Below, one piece after another: positions 2,579 through 28,710 of a DNA stretch of 28,710 nt. The translations under genes were made by a program, and so were the position numbers. This DNA is from a virus. Below the pieces are notes generated by a model that had not been told where the DNA came from, searched no databases, and was given only the letters and a program-made list of their open reading frames with translations. The DNA is taken from positions 1 through 28,710 of IMG/VR virus record IMGVR_UViG_3300032675_002209; one strand, written 5' to 3'. How positions within the stretch are numbered: the stretch's first letter is position 1; the number at the start of each line of letters is the position of its first letter.

Positions 2579-2950
2579 TCAGGCTAACTGGATGATCTGG
2601 TTGAGCCGCTCACATACCTGCATAAAAAACACATCATCCAGCCTGACCAGCGGATGGGGGGTCGCGCTGCGCAATCGCCAGTCAAACGATTTGGGCTGGT
2701 GGCACAGCACATAACTTGTTTTGCCAACTTTACGACCCGTGGCATTTCCAGCCACCACCGCGAACGGATTATCCGCATTGTATTCGGCAGTCGTCATAGG
2801 CAGACCGATGACCAGCGAGGTTTTATCGTTAAAGGCACGCGGGGACAGCACCAGAAAGGGATGAACGTCGCGCATCTCACGCCCGACCTGCGGGTTGCAA
2901 TCGATCCAAATGATTTCCTGACGATCCGGCACCCAGGAGGCTTTTACCAT
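2579..2950 (-). CDS. mazF: MazF/PemK-family endoribonuclease toxin
   Basis: 123 aa, the normal length for MazF/ChpB/PemK toxins. The N-terminal strand and loop IIWIDCNPQVGREMRDVHPF matches the family pattern (IVWVDFDPQ-G-EQ-x-R-P). VIGLPMTT at about 47-54 and SYVLCHQPKSFDWR at about 79-92 match the later conserved strands. Known role: a sequence-specific mRNA interferase that arrests translation when its antitoxin is lost. The ATG overlaps the last 7 bases of the antitoxin gene upstream, the usual coupling in mazEF operons. Inference: it stabilises the element or acts as abortive defence. Confidence 0.93.
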   Translation of the reverse strand: MVKASWVPDRQEIIWIDCNPQVGREMRDVHPFLVLSPRAFNDKTSLVIGLPMTTAEYNADNPFAVVAGNATGRKVGKTSYVLCHQPKSFDWRLRSATPHPLVRLDDVFFMQVCERLNQIIQLA

Positions 2951-3198
2951 TTTTCGGCACCCACGCTCGCGGATGTCTGCATCGCTTCGCCGCCGTGCCG
3001 TGCAGGATCAAATGCGGCTAAGCGCTGTTCCAGCGTCAGCGGTATGTCTTGCACGGGCGCAATGGTGATCAGGCCTTCCGAAACCGAAATGCGAACGCGC
3101 TGGTGAACGTGCAGATGCGCTTCGCGTGCAATCGCGGCAGGTAGACGCACACCCAGATTATTTCCCCATTGTTTTAAATCCAGCATTACTTCAGTCAT
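2944..3198 (-). CDS. mazE: MazE-like AbrB-fold antitoxin
   Basis: 84 aa. The N-terminal LKQWGNNLGVRLPAAIARE is the swapped-hairpin AbrB/MazE DNA-binding motif; the acidic, flexible C-terminal tail is the toxin-binding part in this family. A GTG at 3204 would add two residues, but GGGAG lies 7 bases before the ATG at 3198 and only one base before the GTG, so the ATG is chosen. It is first in the operon and overlaps mazF. Known role: neutralises MazF and represses its own promoter, probably in the 3205-3276 gap. Confidence 0.9.
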   Translation of the reverse strand: MTEVMLDLKQWGNNLGVRLPAAIAREAHLHVHQRVRISVSEGLITIAPVQDIPLTLEQRLAAFDPARHGGEAMQTSASVGAEKW

Positions 3199-3276
3199 GT
3201 TCACTCTCCCGCACCACGTTTAGACACGAGTATAAACATCAGTATTCATTAATGCAATAGACGTTATCTTTTAACC

Positions 3277-8375: not shown

Positions 8376-8404
8376 TTGTGCCATTTCTGCCAGGAATGGC
8401 ACAA
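8376..8404. repeat. Perfect 10-bp inverted repeat between gpW and hsdM
   Basis: TTGTGCCATT at 8376-8385 and AATGGCACAA at 8395-8404 are exact reverse complements around 9 bases that contain another TGCCA. It lies in the divergent region that must hold the promoter for hsdM. Candidate operator for a restriction-modification or phage regulator; no regulator is assigned. Confidence 0.5.
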
Positions 8405-8464
8405 CCTGCAACCATAGCGTATTACAATCGCGCCCTTAATCCTCAAGCAACACAATCAACACCA

Positions 8465-10507
8465 ATGAACATTCTGCAATACGAATCGAAAATATGGGCA
8501 ACAGCGGATCTGTTGCGCGGCTGCGGTATCAAGGAATCTGAATGGCCGTCATTTATGATGCCGTTTTTCGCCCTTGCCATGATTGAAAGCCGTCTGATGC
8601 GGATGTTTGGCAATCTAAAAGAAAAAATCGGTGAGGCCAGTTTTGCGAACATCCGTAAAGATGATCTCTATGACCTGATCAAGGACGAGGGGCAAGGCTA
8701 TAACATCTATATTTTTGAACACACAAAATCGCTCGCCGATATTTGCAAGAACGACAAATCTTTCGATATCGATTTCGATGCCTACCTCAAGGGTTTCGAT
8801 GGAGAAACCAAAGACCTGCTCGGTGTAGAGGCTTCCGAAGGGGAGAAATTCCTCGATATCAAAGGCGTGATCACAAAACTCAAGGCCAAAAAGATACTTC
8901 TGGGCTACACCAAGCTGTGGGCCGAAATCGATCTCAAGCCCTACAATAACTCCGAGATCACTACGCTCGAAGAACACATCAAGCGCAAATGGGCGGATAT
9001 TTCTGCCGAAACAGCCGGAGAGCAATACACACCGGACGACGTAATCTCATTGATTGCTGAGATCATCGCCTCGAAGATCGAGGAATCAGACACCCTACTG
9101 AAAATTTATGACTGCACCTGCGGCGGCGGCAACATGCTGTTCGGCGTGGAAGATCGCATCAATCAGAAATTCAAACGCCTGACACAGACCTTCGGACAGG
9201 ACTGGAACGATGCGCTGTACGCGCTGGCAAAGATTGAAAGTCGTTTTCGCCCCGACGCTAGAATTGAACACGGCAACACCTTGGTGGACGATAAGTTTTA
9301 CAACGACGAGTTCGACGTCGTCATCGCCAATCCACCCTACGGCGTGAGCTGGAAGGGTTATGAAAAGGACATCAATAACGACAAGACCGGGCGATTCAAA
9401 TTTATCCCATCGATCTCAGACGGGCAACTGCTATTCATGCAGCACCTAATCTCCAAGCTGGACGCAGTCGGTATGGGCGTGGTGGTTCACAACGGCTCAT
9501 CTCTGTTTAGCGGGGATGCGGGATCGGCTGAGAGCAATATTCGTAAATGGATGCTGGACTACGACATCGTTGAAGCGGTGATCCAGTTACCGACCGATGA
9601 ATTTTTCAATACTGGCATCTACACCTATCTGTGGATACTGAATAAGAACAAACAGTCACATCACAAGGACCGCGTGATGCTGATCAACGCCAGTGAGAAA
9701 TTCAAGCCGCTGAAAAAGAGCAAGGGTTCCAAGCGCAAGGAAGTCGATGAAGCCAGCCGCCTTGATATTGTCGCGACGCTCACCGCCTACCAAGACAACG
9801 ATTACGCCCGCGTGTTCGACAAGGAATTTTTCTACTTCAATAAACAGGCCATCATGCTCACCAACGTGGACGAGCATGGCAATAGTTTTGAGGCGAAGCT
9901 AAAGGAGGGAAAATCCGGCGAAAAACTGACACCAGTCAAACTTTCCAACGGAGAACGTGAACTGACAGCATTCACCCTCACCACTTTTGAGCAATACGGC
10001 TCGCTGGCCGATTATTTCGAGCAAGACATCAAACCATTTGTCGCCAGCCTAGATTACAAGGAACAGCCGCTGGTGGTCACAACCCGCGAGGCAAGCTATT
10101 ATTTCGACAGCGACAAGGAAACCCTGATCAGGGAAGCTGGCGGAAAGAAGGAAGCGCTGGGCTGCGGCAAGATCGTGGTGAAATCAGCATTGAAAAACGC
10201 CAGCAAAACTCAGCCTATGCGCATCGAAATCACAGTCGAGCTCACCCCCGATTATCAGAAGGATTATGAGATCATTCCTTTTCACAAGGATGAAGATGCC
10301 AACAAGGCGGCGATCGCCGCATTCATGGCCAAATACATCACAAAGCCTTTTGCATATCTTGAAAACGTTGTCGGTGTGGAAATAAACTTCAACAAGATCT
10401 TCTACAAACCGGAAAAACTGCGACCCGTCACCGTGATTCTGCGCGAAATCGCAGCTCTGGATGAGGAACTCAAGGCGTTGGAACAGCAATTGAAAATGGA
10501 TAATTGA
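8465..10507 (+). CDS. hsdM: Type I restriction-modification system DNA methyltransferase subunit (HsdM)
   Basis: 680 aa from ATG 8465 (MNILQYESKIWATADLLRGC); the frame runs upstream to 8378, but the typical HsdM N-terminus begins here. SAM-binding motif I is at about 216-222 (DCTCGGG) and the N6-adenine catalytic motif NPPYG at 289-293. The C-terminal part (DEELKALEQQLK) is a coiled coil as in other HsdM proteins. Known role: with HsdS it methylates adenine on both strands of a split target and is needed for cleavage by HsdR. No strong ribosome site precedes the ATG. It opens a plus-strand operon against the phage genes. Confidence 0.95.
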   Translation: MNILQYESKIWATADLLRGCGIKESEWPSFMMPFFALAMIESRLMRMFGNLKEKIGEASFANIRKDDLYDLIKDEGQGYNIYIFEHTKSLADICKNDKSFDIDFDAYLKGFDGETKDLLGVEASEGEKFLDIKGVITKLKAKKILLGYTKLWAEIDLKPYNNSEITTLEEHIKRKWADISAETAGEQYTPDDVISLIAEIIASKIEESDTLLKIYDCTCGGGNMLFGVEDRINQKFKRLTQTFGQDWNDALYALAKIESRFRPDARIEHGNTLVDDKFYNDEFDVVIANPPYGVSWKGYEKDINNDKTGRFKFIPSISDGQLLFMQHLISKLDAVGMGVVVHNGSSLFSGDAGSAESNIRKWMLDYDIVEAVIQLPTDEFFNTGIYTYLWILNKNKQSHHKDRVMLINASEKFKPLKKSKGSKRKEVDEASRLDIVATLTAYQDNDYARVFDKEFFYFNKQAIMLTNVDEHGNSFEAKLKEGKSGEKLTPVKLSNGERELTAFTLTTFEQYGSLADYFEQDIKPFVASLDYKEQPLVVTTREASYYFDSDKETLIREAGGKKEALGCGKIVVKSALKNASKTQPMRIEITVELTPDYQKDYEIIPFHKDEDANKAAIAAFMAKYITKPFAYLENVVGVEINFNKIFYKPEKLRPVTVILREIAALDEELKALEQQLKMDN

Positions 10508-10555
10508 CAATGGATATCGAGCAATTATCAACCCTCAATTCTCAATTCTCAATTA
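10486..10555. repeat. Degenerate 7-bp tandem repeat array across the hsdM stop and hsdS start
   Basis: Ten consecutive heptads can be laid out from 10486. The last three are near perfect (TCAATTC, TCAATTC, TCAATTA at 10535-10555); earlier ones are degenerate (GCAATTG, AAAATGG, ATAATTG, ACAATGG, ATATCGA, GCAATTA, TCAACCC). The array covers the end of hsdM, its TGA and the first 15 codons of hsdS. A 7-bp unit is not a multiple of three, so copy-number change after the hsdS ATG would break its frame. Confidence 0.6.
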
Positions 10556-11814
10556 AGCGATATGAATCCCATAAGGACAGCGGCGTTGAGTGGATAGGCG
10601 AAGTGCCAGCGCATTGGAAAGTTAAGCGGGTTAAGGATGTTGGTATAGGTGGTCTGACTAATGGAATTTTTAAAACCAAAGATCAATTTGGCTCAGGGCT
10701 GAAATTAGTAAACGTTACTGACCTTTATCAAAAAAATAGTGTTATTAACAATGAAAATCTTGATAGGGTCTGTGCGACAACAACTGAAACAAATAGATAT
10801 TGTGTGCGTGATGGAGATATATTTTTTGTAAGGTCTTCATTAAAGCTCGAAGGAATTGGTGTGTCAGCCATTTTTGAAAATGGCATAGAGGCAACCGTTT
10901 TTGAATGTCATATCATTCGATTCAGACCAAATCAAAAATACGTTTTTCCGAAATTTGCCATATACCAACTTAACTCAAATGAGATTCGTTATAAATTTGT
11001 AATTGTTTCAAAAACCGTAACAATGACGACTATATCGCAAGATAAGATATCAACGGTTGATCTGATATATCCATCTTGCCGCGAGCAAACCGCAATCGCC
11101 GCCTACCTTGACACAAAAACCGCGCAGATCGACCGGAAAATTGATCTGCTCGGTCAAAAGGCGGCGGAATACGGCAAACTCAAACATTCGCTCATTAACG
11201 AAACTGTCACCCGTGGGCTGGATAAAACCGTGCCGATGAAAGACAGCGGAGTTGAATGGATAGGCGAAGTTCCTGCACACTGGGAGATAAAGCGCGTAAA
11301 AGATTCGTCTTTACTTCAAAGTGGCGACTCGATCGTATCTGAGCAAATTGAAGAGGCTGGACTATTTCCCGTTTATGGTGGCAATGGATTGCGGGGTTAT
11401 TTTTCAAAATATACAAATGACGGCGACTACATTTTAATTGGCCGACAAGGAGCTTTGTGTGGAAACATCAATTACGCGTCTGGTAAATTTTGGGCTTCCG
11501 AGCATGCCGTCGTCGCTTATTTAAATCGTTCCATCGACATTAGGTGGTACGGAGCAATGCTCTTGGTGATGAACCTTAACCAATATTCAGTATCAGCGGC
11601 ACAACCAGGTTTGGCAGTTGATCGAATAAAACGATTATTACTTCCAGTCCCTCCTTTTACTGAACAACGAGCCATCGCGGCCTATCTCGATGAAAAAACC
11701 GCGCAGATCGACAGCATCGTTGCTACGATCAACAGCCAAATCGACAAACTCAAAGAACTGCGTAAAACCCTGATTAATGATGTAATCACTGGAAAAATCA
11801 AAGTTATCGGATGA
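10510..11814 (+). CDS. hsdS: Type I restriction-modification specificity subunit (HsdS)
   Basis: 434 aa from ATG 10510; a TTG at 10504 inside the hsdM end is the only earlier start. Two target-recognition domains are visible. Each is introduced by the same phrase, GVEWIGEVPAHW (about residues 25-36 and 247-258), and each is followed by a conserved helix: REQTAIAAYLDTKTAQID in the first half and TEQRAIAAYLDEKTAQID in the second. Known role: the two domains each read one half of a split DNA target and hold two HsdM subunits. The first 15 codons lie in a heptad repeat array. The stop overlaps the next gene by ATGA. The target cannot be predicted from the sequence. Confidence 0.95.
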   Translation: MDIEQLSTLNSQFSIKRYESHKDSGVEWIGEVPAHWKVKRVKDVGIGGLTNGIFKTKDQFGSGLKLVNVTDLYQKNSVINNENLDRVCATTTETNRYCVRDGDIFFVRSSLKLEGIGVSAIFENGIEATVFECHIIRFRPNQKYVFPKFAIYQLNSNEIRYKFVIVSKTVTMTTISQDKISTVDLIYPSCREQTAIAAYLDTKTAQIDRKIDLLGQKAAEYGKLKHSLINETVTRGLDKTVPMKDSGVEWIGEVPAHWEIKRVKDSSLLQSGDSIVSEQIEEAGLFPVYGGNGLRGYFSKYTNDGDYILIGRQGALCGNINYASGKFWASEHAVVAYLNRSIDIRWYGAMLLVMNLNQYSVSAAQPGLAVDRIKRLLLPVPPFTEQRAIAAYLDEKTAQIDSIVATINSQIDKLKELRKTLINDVITGKIKVIG

Positions 11815-12950
11815 TGGACATGGAATTTGAGCAGTTACTAAACCTCTTCACTCAAACTCAGCAAGAATTACAATCGCGTGCGGCTCGGTCTGTGGACATT
11901 ACTTTGGTCGTCCGCAATTGGCTTTTTGGCTGGTATATCGTGGAATTCGAGCAGGGAGACGCAAATAGAGCTGATATGTATGGCAAGCGTTTGCTGGAAA
12001 GGCTCGCGGTTGACCTGACCGCACGCATGGGTCGCGGCTTTTCCAAGCGCTCCCTTGAACAATATCGCCGTTTTTACGAGTTTTATCGGGAGATTGCGCA
12101 GACACTGCCTGCGCAATCTTTGAATGATGATTCCAGACGAGAGATTCGACTGGCATTGACAGGCTCAAATTCCACTTCAGGTATGCCCGGAATTTTACAA
12201 ATAATGTCCGCAGAGTTGGCAAACCGCTTTGTTATCGGCTGGTCACACTATGTTGCATTGTTATCTGTTGCCAGCCCTGACGAAAGAAGATTTTACGAGA
12301 TTGAGGCGCGGGAAAATAGCTGGGGTGCTCGTGAATTGGAACGTCAGATTGCCTCGTCGCTTTACGAGCGACTGGCTCTGAGTCGAGACAAGGAAGGTGT
12401 TAGAGCACTGGCACAAACAGGGTTGGTCATTGAAAAGGCATCCGATGTCATCAAAGATCCTTATGTGCTTGAATTTTTGGATATGGAAGAGAAAAGTAGC
12501 TATTCAGAACATGAGCTTGAATCCGCCATTATCGATCACCTCGAACACTTTCTATTGGAACTGGGTAAAGGTTTTCTCTTCGAGGCACGTCAAAAACGAT
12601 TCACTTTTGATAATGACCATTTCTATGTTGATCTGGTGTTTTACAACCGACTGCTTCGCTGCTATGTCTTAATTGATCTCAAGAGAGAAAAATTGACACA
12701 CCAGGACTTAGGACAGATGCAAATGTATGTCAATTATTTTGACCGCTATGTTAAGACTGCTGATGAACTACCGACTATCGGCATCTTGTTGTGCCATCGC
12801 AAAAACGACGCACTGGTTGAACTGACCCTACCCGAAAATTCAAATATTTTTGCATCGAAGTACCAACTGTACCTACCGTCCAAAGAAGAGTTTAAGAGAG
12901 AGCTGGAAGACGCGGCCGGGATTGAACATCAAAGTGATCACGATCAATGA
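11811..12950 (+). CDS. YhcG-type PD-(D/E)XK nuclease (DUF1016) inside the hsd operon
   Basis: 379 aa. The N-terminal domain (ITLVVRNWLFGWYIVEFEQG, FSKRSLEQYRRFYEFY) matches the DUF1016 N-terminal domain. The C-terminal domain has a PD-(D/E)XK-type core: VDLVFYNRLLRCYVLIDLKR, with D274, D289 and K291 as likely metal and catalytic residues (a DxK variant of ExK), then QDLGQMQMYVNYFD. These proteins often sit with type I RM genes, and their role there is not settled; extra nuclease or recombination-like activity has been proposed. It is coupled to hsdS by ATGA (11811-11814). Its TGA overlaps the ATG of a 52-codon ORF that leads to hsdR. Confidence 0.9.
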   Translation: MMDMEFEQLLNLFTQTQQELQSRAARSVDITLVVRNWLFGWYIVEFEQGDANRADMYGKRLLERLAVDLTARMGRGFSKRSLEQYRRFYEFYREIAQTLPAQSLNDDSRREIRLALTGSNSTSGMPGILQIMSAELANRFVIGWSHYVALLSVASPDERRFYEIEARENSWGARELERQIASSLYERLALSRDKEGVRALAQTGLVIEKASDVIKDPYVLEFLDMEEKSSYSEHELESAIIDHLEHFLLELGKGFLFEARQKRFTFDNDHFYVDLVFYNRLLRCYVLIDLKREKLTHQDLGQMQMYVNYFDRYVKTADELPTIGILLCHRKNDALVELTLPENSNIFASKYQLYLPSKEEFKRELEDAAGIEHQSDHDQ

Positions 12951-13105
12951 TAGTTCTAATGAAATTCCAGCGAAAGCAATGGCGGCAATTATCTTATACG
13001 GCATGCTGCGATCAGGCTAGCGCACAGTCGACACACACGACTCCTGAAAAACCATCCAGCCAAAAACAACGTTACGTGACAGTCAGAGGTCAGTTAATCG
13101 CATGA
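12947..13105 (+). CDS. Small bridging ORF (52 aa) between yhcG and hsdR, tentative
   Basis: ATG 12947 overlaps the TGA of the YhcG-type gene, and its own TGA overlaps the ATG of hsdR, so both ends are ATGA overlaps and the frame is open for 52 codons. It begins MIVLMKFQRKQWRQL and is basic and Gln/Thr rich. No family recognised. It fills the only gap of the operon, and hsdR has just a poor, distant ribosome site (AGAGG, 12 bases from the ATG). The ORF may serve to carry ribosomes to hsdR rather than to make a stable protein. A chance ORF remains possible. Confidence 0.3.
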   Translation: MIVLMKFQRKQWRQLSYTACCDQASAQSTHTTPEKPSSQKQRYVTVRGQLIA

Positions 13106-16100
13106 ACGAACTACACCTGCAGGACAAATTTCTCATCCCTTTTTTTCGTGACGGTCTGAGCTATAAAGAAGTTAAAGCCAACACCATCACGCAGTCGCTG
13201 ATCATCGAGGAAGACCTGCAGGCATTCATCTCTGATACCGAGATGAACAAAAAGCCCTATGAGCAGCTGCTGAAAAAATATCACGGCGATAAAAAACTGC
13301 TGCTGGCGGAATTGATCGCGCTGATCCAGGATCGCATCAGCAGCAGCCGTAACATGGCGCTGTTCATCAATGCGAATAAATCCATCACCCTGCAGGGCAT
13401 CAAGCTCCATCTCTTTTACACCAGTGACAGTGTGATCCACAACAACGCGCTGTTTGAAGAAAACATTTTTTCTGTGGTACAGGAGCTGCCCTACAAATAC
13501 AACCATCAGGGTAAGCAAATATTTTCATTCCGCCCAGATATTGCACTGTTTGTGAATGGCATATATCTGGGTTACAGTGAATTGAAATCCAACTACACCA
13601 ACCAGAGTGCCAGCAGGAATGGTCGCGGCAAGGTCATCAAGGATTATTTTGAGGCGGTGAAGGTCTATCACCTGCATATCGACAGCAACACCATGCTGTC
13701 CGATAGCGAGAAACTGGCCGTCCGCAAAGATTTCCTAAAGATTTTCGAGAAGGCGATCCATATCACCACCACCGACATCGGCGAGACCTTTGTGATCCGC
13801 ACCCTGGCGGATTATTTTGACGAGATACTGTCCACCTGCCGCGATGGCAAATTCGATCGTGAAGAGATCGAAAAGAAGGCGCGGAGCGTGTTCAAACCCT
13901 ACCCTTTGCTCAAACCCGAGGCCGAAAAGAAGGACAAGCTCAAAGAGCTGTTCGACGCGCTCTACGGCAAATATTTCATTGAAAAAGAAATACTGTATTA
14001 CAACTTCATCGAGCGCGACGTGTTGGTGATCAAAGGTGTAAAGGAAGTCAAAAACGAAACCGGGCATCTGATTTCACCCCGGCCAAAGCAAAAATTCGGC
14101 ACCGACAAGATCATCGCCAGGATAGATGAATTCCTGGTACATGAGCAGGAGGCAGACTACTTTGAAAAGCTGCTGGAAAAACAGCTGACGGGTGTGGGGG
14201 AAGCCAAGAAAAAAGAACTGCTGGACAAGCGTAAGGCCTACTCCAACAACAAAAACGTCTATTCGCTGCTGATGCAATATGCAGCGGGTTTCGGCAAATC
14301 CAATATCATCGGCTGGTCGGCCCTGCAGTTGAAGGACATGAGACGCAATGGCGAGTACGTCTACGACAAAATCATGATCGTGGTGGACAGGTTGCAGCTG
14401 CGCAGCCAGATTGATTCGCTGATGCTGAACATGAATATCGACAAACGCATGGTTGTGGAAGCCACCAATAAAAAAACCTTTCAGGAGGCGCTGGCATCCG
14501 ACACCCGCATGGTGATCGTGAACCTGCAAAAATTCGGTGCAGTGCGCGAAATGCTGGATGAAGAAGTGCTGAAGAAACTGGCCAATATGCGCATTGTGTT
14601 TCTGATCGACGAGATCCATCGCTCTAACAGTGGTGAGCAGCATGAGGAAATGATCAGTATTTTCGATGAATTGCAAACTCCGTTTGATAACTCAGCCTAT
14701 GCCACAGGGCACAGCAAAAAAAATCTGATCATCGGATTTACCGCCACGCCGGACGACCATACGCTGGCACGCTTTGGCGAATACAGCGGCTATGCCGAAA
14801 GCGAAAAACTCTGGCGGCCCTTCGACAGCTACACCATGAAGGAGGCGATCGAGGACGGTTTCATCCTGAATCCGTTGAAAAATATTGTCCCTGTCGCATC
14901 GAAAATGCTGTTCGACTTGCCTGGCAACCCTTTGGAAGGTTTCACCGAGAGGGAGCACAAGGACGCTCAGAAAAAACAGGTTTATGAAAACCGCGACCGT
15001 ATCGATGCCATCTCAAAATATGTGGCAGATTTACTGGTAAAGGACGTGTATCGCCAGATTCGCGGCACTGGTAAGGCGATGCTGGCTGTCTATTCCATCA
15101 AGGCGGCGATTGCCTACCAGCAGGCCGTGACTCAGCACTTCAACGCGCTGGTGCAGGAACCTAAATATGCAAAATATGCCGATGCGCCGATCCATGTGGT
15201 GTATTCGAGCAATCAGGACGAACAAAGCGCTTCGGGATTGAATGGCGGCTTGTCGGAAGAAAAGGTACTGGAAAGTTTTGCCCGGCCAAACAACAACGGT
15301 CTGATGATCGTCGTGGCCAAGCTGCAAACGGGATTCGATGAGAAGAAGCTGCACACGCTATTCCTAGATAAGGAAATCAGGGGCATCAGCGCGATACAGA
15401 CCATCTCCCGGGTAAACCGGACTGCCAAATACAAGAACGATTGCAAGATCGTGGATTTCTCGTACAACAACGTCAACGTGCAGAACATCAAGGATGCCTT
15501 CGAGCATTATTCCGACGTCGTGGTGAGCGACTTCGACCCGTTCGGCGACAAAAAGGTGCTGGATGTATTGCTGAGTGTGTTGAATAAATCAGATGCTTAC
15601 GACAAGTTTTATAGCGTATTCATGGGAATTTACAAAAATGCGGTGCTACGCAATAACCCGGAAAGCTTTCTCGACTTTGAAAGCAGTCTGAAAAAATACA
15701 TCGACGCCAATCCGCAGCGCACCGCCGATATCAAGGCCAAGGTGGCCCAGTATTTCACTATCCTGAACCGGATTGAATATGTGATCGAACTGGATGCGAA
15801 ATACAGCGATAGCGGTTTTCTATTTTTCTGGCGCAAGTTCAATACGCTCTACAACATGATGCACCGCAGCGAGGACATCAAGGATCCGATCGAGGTCTAC
15901 TTCGACAATCAGATCGGCATGGTTGAGGTGGTCGCTGAAGACACCAAGACAAAGAAAAAGAAACCCACAACGGTGGCCGAGGGTTTGCCGCCAGGTGCCG
16001 GGGGGCAATTCGATATTCTGGCTGTGATCGCCGCACGCAATGAGCAGGAAGCGAAAACGGGGACGCTGATCAGTGACTTTGAGGCGAAAATATCGGATTT

Positions 16101-16323
16101 ATTTGTCTATGTGCGCAATGCCAGCGAGGGCCAACGTCTGATCGTGAAGATCAAATCACATGTTTCCGAAGCTGAAATTTACGATGATTTCGCGAAGATA
16201 TTCCGCCGCTATAAGGCGCTTAACCGTCAAACCGTTGGCGACTACTTCTTCAAGGAAACCGAAGATCTGGTGGATAAGCTGTGCGATGATTTTGAGGTGA
16301 CAGTTCGAAACTCAGTGAGCTAA
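13102..16323 (+). CDS. hsdR: Type I restriction endonuclease subunit (HsdR)
   Basis: 1073 aa, the usual length for HsdR. Domains in order: a RecB-like PD-(D/E)XK nuclease with P145-D146 and E160-L-K162 (FRPDIALF, then YSELK); a superfamily 2 helicase with Walker A AAGFGKS at 394-400, DEIH at 503-506 and FTATP at about 546-550; motif VI around QTISRVNRT; then a helical C-terminal domain for binding HsdM/HsdS. Known role: ATP-driven translocation and cleavage of unmethylated DNA. All key residues are present, so the enzyme looks active. It converges with the HEPN gene on the other strand, with only 42 bases between their stops. Confidence 0.96.
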   Translation: MNELHLQDKFLIPFFRDGLSYKEVKANTITQSLIIEEDLQAFISDTEMNKKPYEQLLKKYHGDKKLLLAELIALIQDRISSSRNMALFINANKSITLQGIKLHLFYTSDSVIHNNALFEENIFSVVQELPYKYNHQGKQIFSFRPDIALFVNGIYLGYSELKSNYTNQSASRNGRGKVIKDYFEAVKVYHLHIDSNTMLSDSEKLAVRKDFLKIFEKAIHITTTDIGETFVIRTLADYFDEILSTCRDGKFDREEIEKKARSVFKPYPLLKPEAEKKDKLKELFDALYGKYFIEKEILYYNFIERDVLVIKGVKEVKNETGHLISPRPKQKFGTDKIIARIDEFLVHEQEADYFEKLLEKQLTGVGEAKKKELLDKRKAYSNNKNVYSLLMQYAAGFGKSNIIGWSALQLKDMRRNGEYVYDKIMIVVDRLQLRSQIDSLMLNMNIDKRMVVEATNKKTFQEALASDTRMVIVNLQKFGAVREMLDEEVLKKLANMRIVFLIDEIHRSNSGEQHEEMISIFDELQTPFDNSAYATGHSKKNLIIGFTATPDDHTLARFGEYSGYAESEKLWRPFDSYTMKEAIEDGFILNPLKNIVPVASKMLFDLPGNPLEGFTEREHKDAQKKQVYENRDRIDAISKYVADLLVKDVYRQIRGTGKAMLAVYSIKAAIAYQQAVTQHFNALVQEPKYAKYADAPIHVVYSSNQDEQSASGLNGGLSEEKVLESFARPNNNGLMIVVAKLQTGFDEKKLHTLFLDKEIRGISAIQTISRVNRTAKYKNDCKIVDFSYNNVNVQNIKDAFEHYSDVVVSDFDPFGDKKVLDVLLSVLNKSDAYDKFYSVFMGIYKNAVLRNNPESFLDFESSLKKYIDANPQRTADIKAKVAQYFTILNRIEYVIELDAKYSDSGFLFFWRKFNTLYNMMHRSEDIKDPIEVYFDNQIGMVEVVAEDTKTKKKKPTTVAEGLPPGAGGQFDILAVIAARNEQEAKTGTLISDFEAKISDLFVYVRNASEGQRLIVKIKSHVSEAEIYDDFAKIFRRYKALNRQTVGDYFFKETEDLVDKLCDDFEVTVRNSVS

Positions 16324-16365
16324 ATTCATATACACGATGCTATTAAGGTCACTCTATCGTTCACC

Positions 16366-16947
16366 TCATGTATTGCTTGCGGATTGCTCTATAGCTTTTG
16401 CGTAGGAAATAAAAACATCAATGTGTCCAAAAACATCACCCAACGACGTATCGGTCGCCGAGTCATTATGATGAATTATATTATTCCTTTTTCCAACGAC
16501 CGAATTAACAAGTTCCCGATTCAGCTTAAACTCGTCATTGGACTCAAGATCAATGCCCATCCAGCGAAAAAGTTTTGCAGTTTTAAATGGATTTCCAGAA
16601 AGTTTTTCGTCCACATCCTTTTTGCTTAAAGGTAGTGAGAATTGCTTATAAGCTAGCGCCCCATCTTTAACATCGGCATCTAGAGACCAAAGCATCAGAT
16701 TATGTGGGACTTTTGCATCTAAAATCCGCTGATTAACGCTTGTTACATGCTCTGATGCAATATCTTTAAGGAATGCCTCTAGGTATGAACAGAGGCAGAT
16801 TAAGTAAGATTTAACAAGAAAATTGGAGTGTTCAACAAAAAAAATATCAGGTGGATCTTGCTCCAATCGCACCTGCGATTGGCTAATAATTTCTTTAAGA
16901 CTATTAAAAAGTCCAAGGTAATGGGCGTAAGTTTGCGCGTAGGTCAT
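16366..16947 (-). CDS. MAE_28990/MAE_18760-like HEPN protein, partner of DUF262
   Basis: 193 aa from ATG 16947, which overlaps the TGA of the DUF262 gene (ATGA). A longer start at 16977 would overlap DUF262 by 34 bases and is less likely. RNNIIH at residues 154-159 is the R-X4-H HEPN motif, preceded by LVNSVVGK and followed by HND, as in the MAE_28990/MAE_18760 HEPN group. An earlier helix (FLVKSYLICLCSYLEAFLKD, about 43-62) matches the first half of the HEPN bundle. Known of the family: frequent genomic partner of DUF262 proteins in defence loci. Inference: RNase effector. AT-richer than the phage genes, which fits acquisition. Confidence 0.8.
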   Translation of the reverse strand: MTYAQTYAHYLGLFNSLKEIISQSQVRLEQDPPDIFFVEHSNFLVKSYLICLCSYLEAFLKDIASEHVTSVNQRILDAKVPHNLMLWSLDADVKDGALAYKQFSLPLSKKDVDEKLSGNPFKTAKLFRWMGIDLESNDEFKLNRELVNSVVGKRNNIIHHNDSATDTSLGDVFGHIDVFISYAKAIEQSASNT

Positions 16948-18059
16948 TTGAGATGAGCGGTTAGAATTTTTTCCCAAATGGTCCGGCGATTAATAATCGA
17001 ATTCTTCCGTTGTAGGCCGCCAGAAAGTGTTTTTTGAAAGGCCGCTGAACCGCAAAGTTCTGAAAATGCATTTTGAATATCTGCTTGTCTTTTCTTAATA
17101 ACGGAATCTTTCAAACCACCAAGACTATGCATCAAAAGATCGTAATAAACCATGCTTTGTTTGGTTCTTTTCTTTGAAGTATCTTTAAATACAGTTTCTT
17201 TAAAAACTAAAAGACAGTTGTTCAAACTATTAGTAAAGGATACTTCTAATGTTTCGATTTCCGCATCAGAAATATCTTGCTTAGAAGACATAAATTCGTC
17301 AAGAAAACGTGAAAGTCTATCGCCATAGTTACTAATATTTCCAGAAAACGCGAAAAATCTTAGAACCTGTTCTTCAGCCTCTAAACTGTCTTTTATGCTC
17401 TCAGAATTTGGCCCTTTACCAAAATTTCTAATTGCTTCTTTCAATGCCAGTTTTTTTAGAAGATCATCAAATTTTCCTGGATAAATAGCATGTCTTATTT
17501 CTTGATCAGACAGTGATACTGCCCCCTGATTTAATCTGGAGAATATTTCTCGTATTAGTGACTGAGGATTTTCCTTACGTAATACGATACACCGTATTGT
17601 AGTAGCTTCTAGTTCTGACTTATACTCTCCAAGCTGCGAAAACTTCTTTCCTTCCAACTCGCTGAATGTAGACAAACCTTCAAGAGAAAACTCATCATTA
17701 AAAAATCTAACTATGGTTGTAAGCCTTTGTACACCATCGATTACGATATGACGGCTATCTTTATCTTCGGCAAAATAGCAAGATGGCAAAGGTATTCTCA
17801 TAAGGCATGACTCAATAAATCTTGACGCTCTTTCCCATCCTTCCTTATCCCATTTGTATTTTCTCTGAAATTCAGGATTCAAAAGTAGTTTTGGATTTTC
17901 CGAATTAATTCGTGCTACTAACGTTTCAAAAGGGTAATCAATAGGATAAAGATTAAGAGTTTTTTTATCTGCGAGTTCATTCATAATATCATTATGTGTA
18001 GCAATAAAATTCTCAAGCGTCCGTGCCGAACTCCGACCATATTTCGCCAATTGAGACAT
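16944..18059 (-). CDS. DUF262 (GmrS/ParB-like) protein coupled to a HEPN nuclease
   Basis: 371 aa. The DUF262 domain spans about residues 42-190: LNPEFQRKYKWDKEGW at 60-75, then VIDGVQRLTTI at 107-117, a slight variant of the usual DGQQRLTTL. This is a ParB/Srx-like fold with NTP-binding or hydrolysis activity; in GmrSD the same domain drives cleavage of modified DNA. The second half is helical and has no HNH (DUF1524) nuclease domain, so the nuclease role probably lies in the HEPN protein made from the overlapping downstream gene. It reads in the direction of the phage late operon, 162 bases after the Mor-like gene. Confidence 0.85.
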   Translation of the reverse strand: MSQLAKYGRSSARTLENFIATHNDIMNELADKKTLNLYPIDYPFETLVARINSENPKLLLNPEFQRKYKWDKEGWERASRFIESCLMRIPLPSCYFAEDKDSRHIVIDGVQRLTTIVRFFNDEFSLEGLSTFSELEGKKFSQLGEYKSELEATTIRCIVLRKENPQSLIREIFSRLNQGAVSLSDQEIRHAIYPGKFDDLLKKLALKEAIRNFGKGPNSESIKDSLEAEEQVLRFFAFSGNISNYGDRLSRFLDEFMSSKQDISDAEIETLEVSFTNSLNNCLLVFKETVFKDTSKKRTKQSMVYYDLLMHSLGGLKDSVIKKRQADIQNAFSELCGSAAFQKTLSGGLQRKNSIINRRTIWEKILTAHLK

Positions 18060-22617: not shown

Positions 22618-25019
22618 CGGATCGCCTCCAGTGCCTGTTTAAACTTGGTGCATTGGGTCGTCAGCCAGGCGACTTTGCTTTCCGTGTCATCCCTGGCGCT
22701 TCCATGCTTGATCAGCATGACAGACGGCGGAATGACGGTGCCCCGGACGATGCGGCGAGTGCCGTCCATGCGGTTTTCCTCGCCGTACTCCCAGCCGGGC
22801 AGATGTTTGACGCTGCCGATGAACTGGCGGGAGGCACGCGGTTTCGCTTCGCCGTTGACCCGACAGAACCAGCAGTAAGCCTCATACAGCTCGGCGGATC
22901 CGGCTGGCCCCACAGGGAGATCCAGTCGACCGGCCAGCCATTCGTCGATGAACATCTGCACCGAGTCACGACTGATGTCGATCAGGTCACGTTTGGCGCG
23001 CGTCATCGGCGGTTTGGTGTGTTCGTCGAAGTCGCCCAGATCCAGATTGAGCATATGCCAGTGCAGTGCCGCGATGCCACCGTTGTCCAGTTCGTCGCGC
23101 ACCTGCTGATAAAACTCGGCAGGCAGTTTCTCCGGCGTATGGATCACGCCGAAGCGCCGGTCATCCTTGTCCAGATGCAGCGGCTGAGACTCGTTGGACA
23201 GGAACACCAGATTGACGTGATTGCGCTCGTCGTGTGCCGCAACATTTTTCGGGTTGATGCGGATCCACTCGCCGGTGACCAGCCCTTTCAGCTTGTTCTT
23301 CAGGTGGAACAGCTCGTTGCGAGCGACGATCTCATCCGCGATCATGAACAGCTTCTTGGACGCCCAGTCGTTGAACTTATCCTCGATGGCCGACTGGTCG
23401 ATGATGCGGCCGTATTCGCCGTAGATCGCCATCACCGCCTCAAAAAACAGATTCTTGCCGGTGCCCTGCGCGCCGTGAAAGATCAGCGCGGTGCGCATTT
23501 TCGCGCCCGGATGCTGAACCGGATAGGCCAGCCAGCGCATCACCCAGAGAAAAACCTCAAGATGCGCTTCCTCCTCGTTGCACAGGTATTCGAGCAGCCC
23601 CAGCAGACACTCACACGAACCCTGTTTCGGCACGGTGGGCCAGCCGCCCCACAGATTGCAAGTGATACGAGGATCGTTCCCGGGCGGATCGAAACCGACC
23701 TCGTCCATGCGCGCCACGCGTTTGATCGCCCGCATGTCACGCCAGCCGTGTTCGGGGATGATGTCCAGCACATCCACCTTGGGCACCAGGATGTGTTCCT
23801 GATAATCAAACATGGTGCCCTTGCTGCCGAACACTAGCGCAAAACGCTCGACCGCCTCCTCCAGAGTCAGCATGGATTTCAGGGCTTCGCGCGCCCCTCC
23901 CCCCCGCATAGCAGGTTCCGCGCGCGGCATAGCATCGCGCCATTTCAGCGCATCGAGCGCGGCATTGATCTGCTCGGCCAGCGTGACAGGCAGTCCGCTC
24001 AACACCAGCAGGTCGTTGTAGTCGGTGAGTTTTTTGCCATCGCGCAGGTCGCGCCCCTCTGCATCGACCGGAAAAGCCGGCTTGATCCAGGACGACTGCT
24101 CGAGTCCGGCGGAGGCCTTGGCCGCTTCCGTGCAACCGGGATTGCCGTCGGTCAGATAATCGTCATCCGCACAGAACAACAAACGCAGTGCCGGGCAGGC
24201 TTTGGCGATCTCCTTGCCTGCGCGGGCCAAGTTGTTCGCCGAAAACGCGTAGGCCGCCGGATAGCCGGTGGACTCATGCAGGCTGGCGGCGGTGGCATAG
24301 CCCTCCGCGATCAGCAGCACGCCGCTGCGCGGCAAATTTGCGATCAGACCGAACGTGCCGCCCATCGCCATACCGGACGGCCAGAATTCCTTGTCGCGGC
24401 CAATCTTGGTGCGGCGCGGATGCCCCTTCGCGTAGACGAACTGCAACCCCATGATGCCACCTTTGGTGTCGTGCATGGGGATGACCAGAGCACCGGCTGC
24501 CATCTTCAGCCGGTAGAAATTGGAGTCGTCCAGCCCAGTGAGGCGCATGCCGTCGGTACTGTCCGGCATAAGGCGCAGGCCGTGCGCCCGAATCTGTTTG
24601 CGGGTCAGGTATTCATGCCCGGATGCCGGCGGGCATTTATTCCACACCGCCCCGGCCCACGATGCCGCACGATTGACTTCGGTCTTGCGAATCTGCGCCA
24701 ACCGGCGCGTCTCCTCTTGATGTGCGGCACGCAGCGCGCGTTTATCCTCCTCGGTCAGCAGGGCCGCCCGGTCGCCCCCGAATTCGATCCTGGTGTAGCC
24801 GTCGTCGTTGCCGTGCCAGACGCCGAAGGATCCGACGATATAGGTTCTGCCGGAATTGGGCGACGTCCATTCGCGAAGGCGAGACCACCCGCGTTTCTCC
24901 TGATCCTCGCCCTCCACCTTCCAGCGCTGGATCTTCGCGTCCAGGTTGAGTGGCTTGTCGATGATGAGACCCGCCCCCGCCATCTGCGCGCGTATGTCGT
25001 CATCATTCTCCCGGCTCAT
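22614..25019 (-). CDS. Phage primase/helicase with Toprim and SF3-type ATPase domains
   Basis: 801 aa. The N-terminal third contains a primase-type region; the Toprim domain has IAEGYATAAS with E239 and CADDDY with D285-D287. The C-terminal half is a superfamily 3 / DUF5906-type helicase: Walker A FHGAQGTGKN at 514-523, Walker B KLFMIADEIV, and NLVFLSNESQP as the sensor. Known role: primes and unwinds DNA at the phage or plasmid-like origin, as in P4 alpha and related proteins. Its ATG overlaps the stop of the gpZ-like gene (ATGA). The stop overlaps the 92-residue ORF, beyond which lie the origin-like repeats. Confidence 0.93.
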   Translation of the reverse strand: MSRENDDDIRAQMAGAGLIIDKPLNLDAKIQRWKVEGEDQEKRGWSRLREWTSPNSGRTYIVGSFGVWHGNDDGYTRIEFGGDRAALLTEEDKRALRAAHQEETRRLAQIRKTEVNRAASWAGAVWNKCPPASGHEYLTRKQIRAHGLRLMPDSTDGMRLTGLDDSNFYRLKMAAGALVIPMHDTKGGIMGLQFVYAKGHPRRTKIGRDKEFWPSGMAMGGTFGLIANLPRSGVLLIAEGYATAASLHESTGYPAAYAFSANNLARAGKEIAKACPALRLLFCADDDYLTDGNPGCTEAAKASAGLEQSSWIKPAFPVDAEGRDLRDGKKLTDYNDLLVLSGLPVTLAEQINAALDALKWRDAMPRAEPAMRGGGAREALKSMLTLEEAVERFALVFGSKGTMFDYQEHILVPKVDVLDIIPEHGWRDMRAIKRVARMDEVGFDPPGNDPRITCNLWGGWPTVPKQGSCECLLGLLEYLCNEEEAHLEVFLWVMRWLAYPVQHPGAKMRTALIFHGAQGTGKNLFFEAVMAIYGEYGRIIDQSAIEDKFNDWASKKLFMIADEIVARNELFHLKNKLKGLVTGEWIRINPKNVAAHDERNHVNLVFLSNESQPLHLDKDDRRFGVIHTPEKLPAEFYQQVRDELDNGGIAALHWHMLNLDLGDFDEHTKPPMTRAKRDLIDISRDSVQMFIDEWLAGRLDLPVGPAGSAELYEAYCWFCRVNGEAKPRASRQFIGSVKHLPGWEYGEENRMDGTRRIVRGTVIPPSVMLIKHGSARDDTESKVAWLTTQCTKFKQALEAIR

Positions 25020-25732
25020 CGCGCACTCCTGATCGCATCACGAAAGGCTGCATCGAAAGTTGGCTGAAATTCGCGAGCGACCACCTCAACGGCGTTACGT
25101 TCGAAGTCGATCACCTTGCGGTAACGCGCCGACTGCACGAAGATGAACATGGCCTTGATGGCGGCGCGATCCAGCCGCTTGTAAATGCCAGGATGCAGAT
25201 GGGTGGGAGCGCCAACCGGCACGATAAAATAGCCCGTCAACATCATGCGTTTGCCGCGTCCCTTGTAAATTTGCAGGTGCGAGCGCAAAGCGCCCAGCAT
25301 CTCGCCGATCTCGCGGCGGCTCGGGTTGCCGTAGGCGTCAAGTTTGATGCCGGATCCGGGGATCGCGCGCCAGCCGGACGGCAATCCGCCGAGCGATGCG
25401 ATCGCCTTCTCGAACGGCTTGTTACCGCGCAGGCCGCCGGTGAAATGCTCCTTGAGTAATACGGCAGGTGCCGTGCCACCCGCAGGCTTGATGTCCTTGA
25501 GGCCGATGGTGGCTGTCAGATTCTGCTTGGTGGCCGCAGTAGAAAATGTGGAGTGCGCGACATACGGGCTGGCTGGCTTGAACGCACTGCTCATGTCGGC
25601 CAGCAGGCGCTGCTCGACCGATTTCGCCACGCGGGTAATGGCCAGCGCGGTGGCATATGGCAGCTGCTTCTGCCCGATATCGCTCAGGGATCTTTTTAGT
25701 TCCTCAACGCCTTCGATACGGACAGTGAACAT
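25016..25732 (-). CDS. gpZ/HK97-gp10-like phage morphogenesis protein upstream of the primase
   Basis: 238 aa. The start MFTVRIEGVEELKRSLSDIG, then QKQLPYATALAITRVAKSVE resembles proteins of the lambda minor tail Z / HK97 gp10 kind, where a short strand-helix is followed by QLPFATALALT. The middle (GLRGNKPFEKAIASLGGLPSG) and the basic C-terminus also fit. Known role of that group: tail completion or head-tail connection. GAGG lies 9 bases upstream of the ATG. Its place in the replication operon, ATGA-coupled to the primase, is unusual for a structural gene, so a different role is possible. Assignment by pattern only. Confidence 0.5.
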   Translation of the reverse strand: MFTVRIEGVEELKRSLSDIGQKQLPYATALAITRVAKSVEQRLLADMSSAFKPASPYVAHSTFSTAATKQNLTATIGLKDIKPAGGTAPAVLLKEHFTGGLRGNKPFEKAIASLGGLPSGWRAIPGSGIKLDAYGNPSRREIGEMLGALRSHLQIYKGRGKRMMLTGYFIVPVGAPTHLHPGIYKRLDRAAIKAMFIFVQSARYRKVIDFERNAVEVVAREFQPTFDAAFRDAIRSAR

Positions 25733-25926: not shown

Positions 25927-26138
25927 GATGTGCCTTCAAGGCTGCAAGTCTGCACGCTAACCTTCTGACTTTGAATATGACCAAACAGGTCCAGGTACTG
26001 AAGGCGAATTTTTGAAGGTATTCCACGTATCTTCCAGTTCTGCACACGCTGAGGCCCTTTGACCAGCTCGAACCCGAGCAGCCGCGCAACATTGGTCGGG
26101 CCACCTAATTCATCAATAAGTTGTTTATCAGTTTTCAT
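25923..26138 (-). CDS. YdaS/Cro-like phage regulator
   Basis: 71 aa, starting MKTDKQLIDELGGPTNVARL. The helix-turn-helix runs over about residues 5-50, with GPQRVQNWKIRGIPSKIRLQ as recognition helix and following turn, the pattern of YdaS/Cro antitoxin-like phage regulators. It is divergent from the CI-like gene and first in the leftward early/late operon. The TATAAT of its promoter lies only 8 bases before the ATG, so the mRNA probably begins at or next to the start codon (leaderless or nearly so). Known role: competes with the repressor at the shared operators to favour lytic genes. Confidence 0.85.
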   Translation of the reverse strand: MKTDKQLIDELGGPTNVARLLGFELVKGPQRVQNWKIRGIPSKIRLQYLDLFGHIQSQKVSVQTCSLEGTS

Positions 26139-26146
26139 GGCGAGAT

Positions 26147-26188
26147 ATTATAAACACTACGTTTAATCATGGTCAAACAATTTGTTTT
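26147..26188 (-). promoter_or_regulatory. Leftward early promoter with two repressor operators
   Basis: Read on the minus strand: -35 TTGACC (26171-26176), an 18-base spacer, -10 TATAAT (26147-26152). Two 15-bp operator-like sites overlap it: TAAACACTACGTTTA at 26151-26165 (covers spacer and -10) and CAAACAATTTGTTTT at 26174-26188 (covers -35), 23 bp centre to centre. The same layout recurs at 26630-26671. A repressor bound here would block the Cro-like operon. Confidence 0.75.
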
Positions 26189-26223
26189 ACAATGAGTCAA
26201 CAATTAAAATTATGATGTGCAAC

Positions 26224-26541
26224 ATGAACACTGACTTTGAACGCTTACTTGAAGCCGCTAAAAAACTGCATAACTGCAAATCATCGGCAGCTGCTGCACG
26301 ACTGATCGGAACCTATGATCAGATGCTGACGAACTGGAAATCACGCGGCCTTCCTCGTGCAGATATTATGGATATCGCAAGTAAATTGGGATGCAACCCC
26401 TACTGGCTAAGGGATGGAACAGGATCAATGACCGACCCTTTACTGAACGAGAGAATTAAATCTGTTGTCGAATCCATGCAAACCATGCCGACATACAAGA
26501 TGGATTTACTGGTACAGATATGCAAGACAATGGAAGAGTAA
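26224..26541 (+). CDS. CI-like helix-turn-helix repressor without peptidase domain
   Basis: 105 aa from ATG 26224 (MNTDFERLLEAAKKLHNCKS); an ATG at 26215 is an alternative. The HTH is at about 14-45 (SSAAAARLIGTYDQMLTNWK, then SRGLPRADIMDIASKLG), followed by NPYWLRDGTG, a phrase very common after the HTH of phage CI-type repressors. The S24 peptidase domain is missing, so classical RecA-stimulated self-cleavage is not expected. It lies between two operator clusters and is followed by an intrinsic terminator. Probable role: keeps both the leftward Cro-like operon and the rightward promoter off in the prophage state. Confidence 0.85.
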   Translation: MNTDFERLLEAAKKLHNCKSSAAAARLIGTYDQMLTNWKSRGLPRADIMDIASKLGCNPYWLRDGTGSMTDPLLNERIKSVVESMQTMPTYKMDLLVQICKTMEE

Positions 26542-26567
26542 TTGATTTGTAGTGCCCAAATTATAAA

Positions 26568-26589
26568 CCCGCTCAGGCGGGATTTTTTA
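26568..26589 (+). terminator. Intrinsic terminator of the CI-like gene
   Basis: CCCGC (26568-26572), loop TCAG, GCGGG (26577-26581), then ATTTTTTA. A short GC-rich stem followed by six T, 26 bases after the repressor stop. Confidence 0.85.
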
Positions 26590-26629
26590 TGCCCGGAATA
26601 ACCAACACAAACAGAATCGCAATAAAAAT

Positions 26630-26671
26630 CAAACAATGTGTTTGCATTTAATTAAACATAGTGTTTATAAT
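26630..26671 (+). promoter_or_regulatory. Rightward promoter with two repressor operators, a near copy of the leftward one
   Basis: Operators CAAACAATGTGTTTG (26630-26644) and TAAACATAGTGTTTA (26653-26667) are 23 bp apart centre to centre. A TATAAT at 26666-26671 overlaps the second; a weak -35 TTGCAT (26642-26647) lies 18 bases upstream. Over 26651-26671 the sequence matches the leftward promoter (minus strand, 26167-26147) at 20 of 21 positions. A third, weaker site may be at 26685-26699. It would drive the 67-aa gene and the genes towards the integrase. Confidence 0.72.
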
Positions 26672-26798
26672 TAAATCGGAACACTAAACACATTGACTGC
26701 CACACCCACCGAGCAGCATCGTTGTCACACACATACATTACAGAGTGACCGTGCACCATATCATTTCCGGAAAACTCTGATTTTTGAGGAAGAAGATT

Positions 26799-27002
26799 AT
26801 GAGCAACTACACCGACGATCTGAGATACACCATCGCAAAGCGCATTCCGGACATGAATCGCGGCTTCAAAATCTGCACTAATTATGGCGATTTTTTCATT
26901 GAAGAGAATGAAACTGAGCCAATCACCAAGCTGGTGCGCAAGGCATTCGAAAAGCATTTGAAAATAGCCATGGCAGCAGAGTCAAATCGGAGGCCATCAT
27001 GA
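26799..27002 (+). CDS. Small hypothetical phage protein (67 aa)
   Basis: 67 aa from ATG 26799 (MSNYTDDLRYTIAKRIPDMN); GAGGAAG precedes it at good distance, while the longer frame from 26784 would bury that site. No known domain. It has a mixed alpha/beta pattern with a helical C-terminus (TKLVRKAFEKHLKIAMA). First gene behind the rightward repressed promoter, and its TGA overlaps the next ATG (ATGA). Probably an early or lysogeny-control accessory protein. Confidence 0.6.
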   Translation: MSNYTDDLRYTIAKRIPDMNRGFKICTNYGDFFIEENETEPITKLVRKAFEKHLKIAMAAESNRRPS

Positions 27003-27196
27003 GTGCCTGCGCTTATAACTACACGGTCGCGGTCGTCACTGATCAGTTAGAGCGCACCGACATAGCCATCGCAACTTATCTGAAAAGTTACCCTGACTCA
27101 AGCGTGGATGACGCACTGGATGCACTATTTCAATTGGGCATCAACACTTTCCTGACGTGCAGCACGCACACGAAATCGAATATAACAGCCGAGTAA
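26999..27196 (+). CDS. Small hypothetical protein (65 aa)
   Basis: 65 aa, coupled to the previous gene by ATGA. The helical core (DIAIATYLKSYPDSSVDDAL followed by DALFQLGIN) resembles small DNA-binding or RHH-like proteins only in a general way; no family is claimed. The last ~12 residues (LTCSTHTKSNITAE) look unlike the rest, and another reading frame stays open just downstream (27157-27291), so a frameshift near 27140 is possible. Confidence 0.5.
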   Translation: MSACAYNYTVAVVTDQLERTDIAIATYLKSYPDSSVDDALDALFQLGINTFLTCSTHTKSNITAE

Positions 27197-27427: not shown

Positions 27428-27856
27428 ATGAACATCATGCCTAGACTGATACGTCACCGCGATGCACCTGCCTACCTGGGCATGTGCCGCGATGTGTTTG
27501 ACGTATCGGTACGGCCGTTTATCGTTGAAATTCCAATCGGTGGCAGAGGCGTTGCATTTGACCGGATTGACCTGGATGCATGGGCAACCCACCACAAAGA
27601 AATTAACGGAAAAAGACCAATCATCAACGGAGAAAAATCATGGCAACAACCAGAACGCGCGGAATATCAATTGAAGCAGACGGATCGCGCACCCTCAACA
27701 AAGTCTGCAAAGGTGAACGCATCTTCATCAGACTCGGAAAAGTATCGCAAGACCAGGCAGAACAGCGACTCGCAGACGAAATCAGAAAACGGCAAAGTCA
27801 GCATCATCGAGCGGACGCTCGCCCTGTGTTCGCAGACTGCGCAGCGCGTTACCTGA
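27428..27856 (+). CDS. Excisionase-like small DNA-binding protein overlapping the integrase gene
   Basis: 142 aa as an open frame. Residues about 4-60 (MPRLIRHRDAPAYLGMCRDV, then VEIPIGGRGVAFDRIDLDAW) have the winged-helix pattern of AlpA/Xis-type proteins: a short helix, an ARG-like turn, a hydrophobic wing and a final D-x-x-D-L-D-A-W helix. Known role: directs the integrase towards excision and may regulate its promoter. The last ~72 residues lie in the same DNA as the integrase N-terminus in another frame, are Ser/Lys/Gln rich and look unstructured. Start ATG 27428 or 27437; the ribosome site is weak. Confidence 0.65.
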   Translation: MNIMPRLIRHRDAPAYLGMCRDVFDVSVRPFIVEIPIGGRGVAFDRIDLDAWATHHKEINGKRPIINGEKSWQQPERAEYQLKQTDRAPSTKSAKVNASSSDSEKYRKTRQNSDSQTKSENGKVSIIERTLALCSQTAQRVT

Positions 27857-28710
27857 CCGAATCGCAACATAAGCGCACAGCTGATCTGCTGGCCTACCAC
27901 ATCACGCTACTACTGCCATTTATCGGCACCATGGATATCGCCCACGTTCACGATGCGACCCTGGAAGAATTCAAAGAATCCAGACGCATGGACGAGGTCA
28001 GCCCAACCACCATCAACCGCACCCTGGAAGTCGTGCGCGCGATTCTCAATCGAGCAGCCCGCGCATGGCGCGACGACAACGGCCAACCCTGGCTGATGAC
28101 AGCACCGCCACTGATCACCATGGAGCAGGAAAATCGCCGCCCGCCACATCCGTTAAGCTGGGAAGAACAGGATGAACTGCTGCCGCTGCTGCCAGCACAC
28201 TTGCAACCGATGGTACTTTTCGCGATCAACACCGGTCTTCGCGATGAAAACGTGGTCGGTCTGCGCTGGAAATGGGAGCGTCCAGTTCCGGAAGCCGGGC
28301 GTAGCGTCTTCATTATCCCGCCAGCAGATTATAAAACAGCAGTCGGGCACGTCGTGATTCTCAACGATGCCGCCTGGCGCATCATTGAGGCTCAACGCGG
28401 GAAACATGCCGATTTCGTGTTCACCTATAGCGGACACCGCGTCGACACTATGAACAACAACGGCTGGCAGACTGCTCGCGCAAAAGTCGCGCTGACCGAT
28501 GTCAGAATCCACGATCTGCGACACACCTACGCCAGCCGACTGAGGTTAGCAGGCGTAGCACAAGAAGATCGCAACGCACTGATGGGACATAAATCCGCAT
28601 CAATACCTGAACACTACGCCAGCGCCGACATAGGCAGGCTGATTGAGCTATCAAATAAAGCGCTAGATCGGAAAGGCACTCGCACGCTATTGCGCGTAGT
28701 AAATGGATAA
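27640..28710 (+). CDS. int: Phage tyrosine recombinase / integrase
   Basis: 356 aa, complete; the TAA is the last codon of the window. The N-terminal arm-binding part (about 1-60) is followed by a SAM-like core-binding domain (about 62-160) and the catalytic domain. Catalytic residues: R201 (NTGLRDENV), H291 and R294 (HDLRHTYAS), H317 (MGHKSA) and nucleophile Y326 (EHYAS). GGAG lies about 7 bases before the ATG. Known role: site-specific integration and excision between attP and a host attB. As the last gene of the element, attR or attL should lie just right of 28710, commonly in a tRNA gene. Confidence 0.97.
   Translation: MATTRTRGISIEADGSRTLNKVCKGERIFIRLGKVSQDQAEQRLADEIRKRQSQHHRADARPVFADCAARYLTESQHKRTADLLAYHITLLLPFIGTMDIAHVHDATLEEFKESRRMDEVSPTTINRTLEVVRAILNRAARAWRDDNGQPWLMTAPPLITMEQENRRPPHPLSWEEQDELLPLLPAHLQPMVLFAINTGLRDENVVGLRWKWERPVPEAGRSVFIIPPADYKTAVGHVVILNDAAWRIIEAQRGKHADFVFTYSGHRVDTMNNNGWQTARAKVALTDVRIHDLRHTYASRLRLAGVAQEDRNALMGHKSASIPEHYASADIGRLIELSNKALDRKGTRTLLRVVNG

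Follow-up and report, generated by a model that had tools for sequence, protein, structure and literature searches.

How can one small repressor hold two promoters on opposite sides of its gene, and how is such a switch released when the repressor carries no cleavage domain? This question is raised by a locus of the viral record IMGVR_UViG_3300032675_002209 (IMG/VR), of which we analysed positions 1 to 28,710, a stretch of 28,710 nucleotides hereafter called the window. We are highly confident that the locus is a lambda-like immunity region of a temperate phage, in which a small repressor acts on paired operators at both outward promoters and induction comes from elsewhere.

Between the two promoters lie the repressor gene and a terminator-like hairpin, and nothing else (Table 1). 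The two promoter arms, 26147-26187 and 26631-26671, are inverted copies of each other with 33 of 41 bases identical, whereas 200 dinucleotide shuffles of the region gave 26 of 41 at best. This bears out the preliminary description, which had reported near-identical promoter/operator pairs flanking the repressor gene. It was also correct about the 21-base core ATTAAAC[G/A]TAGTGTTTATAAT, in which 20 of 21 positions match between the two arms, the TATAAT box at -10 and the 18-bp spacer of both promoters, and the 23 bp that separate the operators in each pair. The rightward promoter is missed by a simple scan because its weak -35 box, TTGCAT, matches the consensus at only three of six positions.

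The claim of two operators per promoter stands as well, but the core of each is a 13-bp palindrome, AAACAnnnTGTTT, and not the 15 bp first proposed. Sites with at most one mismatch to this palindrome are found at these four places only across the whole 28,710-base record, and four or more such sites anywhere were obtained in one of 100 shuffles. At each promoter, one operator touches the edge of the -35 box and the other lies within the spacer and touches the -10 box, so that a bound protein would block the polymerase. No third operator is recognisable on either side in the window, the best candidate next to either pair having at least 4-5 mismatches; a third operator on the Cro side is present in many relatives.

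Table 1. Features of the repressor locus and its two flanking operons (positions in the window; operators are predicted).
Feature	Position	Strand	Remarks
Cro-like protein, 71 aa	25923..26138	-	phrog_8008, 3.4e-21; first gene of leftward operon
Leftward promoter (PR-equivalent)	26147..26176	-	-35 TTGACC 26171-26176, 18-bp spacer, -10 TATAAT 26147-26152
OR1-equivalent operator, AAACACTACGTTT	26152..26164	.	1 mismatch; in spacer, touching -10
OR2-equivalent operator, AAACAATTTGTTT	26175..26187	.	0 mismatches; over -35 edge
Putative PRM -10, TATGAT	26211..26216	+	8-13 nt before ATG 26224
CI-like repressor, 105 aa	26224..26541	+	HTH domain and two C-terminal helices, no S24 domain
Terminator-like hairpin	26568..26589	+	3' of repressor gene, 5' of rightward promoter
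OL1-equivalent operator, AAACAATGTGTTT	26631..26643	.	0 mismatches; over -35 edge; matched in relatives
Rightward promoter (PL-equivalent)	26642..26671	+	-35 TTGCAT 26642-26647, 18-bp spacer, -10 TATAAT 26666-26671
OL2-equivalent operator, AAACATAGTGTTT	26654..26666	.	0 mismatches; in spacer, touching -10
67-aa ORF	26799..27002	+	phrog_27325; first gene of rightward operon
65-aa ORF	26999..27196	+	rightward operon
Excisionase-like ORF, 142 aa	27428..27856	+	phrog_13517; putative xis, from its place before int
Tyrosine integrase	27640..28710	+	rightward operon

The leftward operon runs from the Cro-like gene through a minor-tail-like gene, a primase and a DNA methyltransferase to the terminase, and the rightward operon from two small ORFs through the excisionase-like ORF to the integrase. 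An ORF that resembles the 67-aa ORF by eye is also found upstream of xis/int in the related record L121. Several features of the neighbourhood deserve mention in their own right. The minor-tail/neck-like protein (phrog_1924, 2.4e-54; 25016-25732, minus strand) belongs to the early operon, where its gene lies between those of Cro and the primase. Between the terminase and the portal, at 8378-18059, lie genes of a type I restriction system (HsdM, HsdS, a DUF1016/YhcG nuclease and HsdR) together with a GmrSD_N gene, the four restriction genes being oriented against the late genes. A MazEF-type toxin-antitoxin pair is located near the left end of the window (2579-3204, minus strand).

We found the same layout in many other records. 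IMG/VR was scanned for two exact palindromes 8-12 bp apart, and this returned 114 stretches, against seven for a control palindrome pair of equal base composition. With the window counted, 69 of 115 records encode homologues of both the repressor and Cro, and 60 loci, again including the window, have the two genes as a divergent pair. In nearly all of these 60 the operators occupy fixed places, near -74, -50 and -35 relative to the repressor start; the OR1-equivalent place is occupied at about -74 to -72 and the OR2-equivalent place at about -50/-49. Because these loci were selected by operator pattern, one pair per locus is expected, but the other is not; a second pair is nonetheless present beyond the repressor in 52 of the 60. 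The distal promoters of these loci point outwards and have a TTGACA or TTGCAT box at -35 and a TTTAAT or TATAAT box at -10, fused to the operators. At the counterpart of the rightward promoter, relatives have TGTTTGACA or TGTTTGCAT, followed by TGTTTAAT.

Operator-selection bias was removed by retrieving loci with the repressor sequence alone. Among 45 repressors outside the first set, Cro is divergent in 40 and an operator pair precedes the repressor in 28. The distal pair was counted in the 37 loci whose sequence continues for 1 kb or more past the repressor, and it was detected in 27, 32 and 33 of them at total mismatches of at most one, two and three, respectively; the rate in shuffled sequence was 0.000. 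Since distal pairs recur in loci picked by protein alone, the twin arrangement is a rule of this family. The earlier reading of the locus as an OL/OR-like switch is thus upheld, and the fixed operator distances, the divergent Cro and the second outward pair of independent relatives strengthen it.

The repressor was said to lack a cleavage domain, and this is confirmed. It has no match to Pfam Peptidase_S24, which was found in 18 of 30 aligned family members. About 35 aa follow the HTH domain of the protein, and between its stop codon (26541) and the start of the next operator (26631) there is no room for an S24 domain. Most relatives have S24, the motif being absent in 15 of 61 scored repressors (about a quarter). 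A tree of the N-terminal domain contains about seven changes of the S24 trait, at least three of which are forced by well-supported branches; the window repressor sits on a long branch of this tree and its exact place is unsure. Its closest full-length relatives (L168, L169 and L170) are 115-159 aa long, 32-45% identical and likewise without S24, and they have the same two-helix C-terminal tail. Because the absence of S24 is shared by this small clade of 105-159 aa repressors, it represents an evolved type and not decay.

AlphaFold places helices at residues 72-86 and 91-104 of the tail with modest confidence, and the two-helix tail may serve dimerisation. The repressor model resembles the DNA-binding domains of P22 C2 and 434 Cro/repressor, although these Foldseek matches are weak (best E-value 0.012). 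In a PDB sequence search, only the S24 part was matched for the repressor family and nothing significant was found for Cro; when GTDB genomes were searched with the repressor alone, the one match was irrelevant.

From this layout we propose the following switch. The 105-aa repressor would bind the paired AAACAnnnTGTTT palindromes, one pair at each outward promoter, and would thereby silence Cro and the replication genes in the leftward operon as well as the small genes, xis and int in the rightward one. Cro, whose recognition helix shares a Q...NW..RG motif with that of the repressor, probably competes for the same sites and would lock the lytic state. The repressor itself is probably transcribed from a promoter reading out of the left operator region. 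Its start codon is most likely the ATG at 26224, and in relatives the bases at -12 and -8 before the repressor start codon are conserved as A (85%) and T (82%), respectively. An mRNA start near 26224 would give a near-leaderless repressor mRNA and place the OR2-equivalent site about 43 bp upstream, close to where lambda CI activates its own promoter; both features, putative in the window, would match lambda PRM. With a two-helix tail instead of S24 the repressor cannot cleave itself, so induction must come from elsewhere, most likely from a protein that inactivates the repressor or from a drop in repressor level that gives Cro the upper hand.

The canonical SOS route, in which an antirepressor under LexA control inactivates a non-cleavable repressor, may apply here, although we consider it somewhat less than probable. 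Other small non-cleavable repressors are inactivated by antirepressors (PMC3121763), and the record, which is without capsid genes, is probably incomplete, so an antirepressor gene may be missing from it. In addition, a LexA-like box is present in four prophages of a different non-S24 clade with 180-aa repressors. However, no exact CTGT-N8-ACAG box was detected in the window and the records of L168-L170 (144 kb in all), this being the canonical motif and perhaps not that of the hosts' LexA, and boxes with one mismatch are no more frequent in the window than expected by chance. No Bro-N antirepressor domain was found in 14 records, and among the stretches compared the only genes that the window clearly has in common with the short-repressor loci are the repressor, Cro and the primase. 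In these records, which may be incomplete, the absent canonical boxes and the absent shared candidate gene lean mildly against a canonical SOS antirepressor. LexA boxes were also considered as a separator of S24 from non-S24 records and rejected, being about as frequent in the former (3/16) as in the latter (4/14). In the 180-aa clade (L163-L166), the LexA-like box, at about 1501, lies between an SRAP-like gene (recognised by eye) and a divergent ORF of about 170-230 aa, and this region is a possible SOS locus.

Induction independent of SOS is conceivable to the same degree: a small phage protein or a host cue could inactivate the repressor, or the switch could flip at a low rate via Cro. The short-repressor records have no LexA boxes of the canonical kind, in line with this mode of induction, but that absence carries little weight if LexA of the hosts recognises a different motif. 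The small ORFs of the rightward operon are available as candidates, although no specific inducer gene was identified. The transcription-factor/small-protein modules of vibriophages provide a precedent for SOS-independent induction, though with cleavable repressors (PMC10432266).

A defective prophage that can no longer be induced, with the switch as a relic, seems unlikely. No capsid gene was seen in the window between the portal and the tail-fibre-like ORFs, and the late genes are interrupted by the type I restriction cassette; yet the promoters, the operators, the repressor and Cro are all intact, a stretch identical to the window is present in a second metagenome contig, and short repressors are conserved in other records. 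A defective phage body would in any case leave the nature of the switch unchanged. Finally, it is very improbable that the divergent small gene encodes a toxin of the YdaS type, with the palindromes autoregulating a toxin-antitoxin pair. This is hinted at by a weak Pfam match of the Cro-like protein to YdaS_toxin (E 0.0057, short of the curated cut-off) and by one relative annotated as antitoxin. However, YdaS itself is a Cro-like HTH protein, and the position, the promoter, the recognition motif in common with the repressor and the presence of a second operator pair at the int operon agree with a lysogeny switch.

Returning to the lambda-like switch, a speculative extension, which we regard as doubtful, is that the family keeps its operator code while the C-terminal part of the repressor is repeatedly swapped, between a self-cleaving type and several non-cleaving ones. 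A non-cleavable repressor like that of the window could then silence a co-resident, normally SOS-inducible prophage of the same code, and the short clade would be induced independently of SOS. The code is simple and searchable, and by it the lysogeny switches of dozens of prophages, most of them undescribed, can be recognised. Its use with both cleavable and non-cleavable repressors allows a direct comparison of the two types, and makes it testable how non-cleavable repressors are lifted, including any cross-immunity that they may impose on SOS-inducible relatives.

Not all relatives use this code. Among relatives identified by their integrase, L121 and L122 retain the int end, but their records contain no match to Cro, and operator pairs are absent near int. 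The Acinetobacter-type prophages L124-L150, which encode a related Cro, have other palindromes beside it (ACACATTTTGTGT and AATCAAAATGATT), suggesting, from sequence, a second operator code; the first code is therefore not shared throughout the Cro family. In L168-L170, which are uncultured prophages, operator pairs 21-24 bp apart are found on both sides as in the window, but at least one gene separates the repressor from the distal pair, and the operators diverge by 0-2 bases per site. The Shewanella phage vB_Sb_QDWS (OK094664; L004) has the operator code beside its divergent CI/Cro pair (5910, 5925 and 5949) and a distal operator pair (4629 and 4653), while its repressor gene is much longer (about 265 aa). 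A literature search for the operator letters returned unrelated papers only.

The closest parallel is lambda, whose side of the comparison is general knowledge. In both, the repressor gene has an outward promoter on either side, each promoter carries a pair of palindromic operators spaced by about 23-24 bp, and cro is found on one flank and int on the opposite one. Likely counterparts in the window also exist for the site near -42 of the repressor promoter and for the leaderless cI mRNA. Because the Cro gene is on the leftward promoter, that side corresponds to lambda OR/PR, and the window read from the other strand gives the lambda order of int, PL, cI, PR, cro and replication, in mirror orientation. 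The differences are the 105-aa repressor without S24, two recognisable operators per side instead of three, about 440 bp between the operator modules, and a 13-bp core of another sequence. Lambda cooperativity and OL-OR looping depend on the repressor C-terminal domain, so that looping of the lambda type through this domain is not available to the window repressor. Repressors without a cleavage domain are already known from Gifsy, 186 and N15, and that point alone is not new. The repressors of Gifsy-1/-2/-3 (GfoR, GtgR), of 136 aa, match the CI N-terminal domain only and are not cleavable, and are bound by LexA-controlled antirepressors (PMC3121763). The window repressor is similarly small and devoid of a cleavage domain; it differs in that neither a canonical LexA box nor an antirepressor was found in the window and the short-repressor records, which may be incomplete. 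The locus is thus a genuine lambda-type switch, well conserved and built around a minimal repressor, and belongs to a known kind of immunity region.
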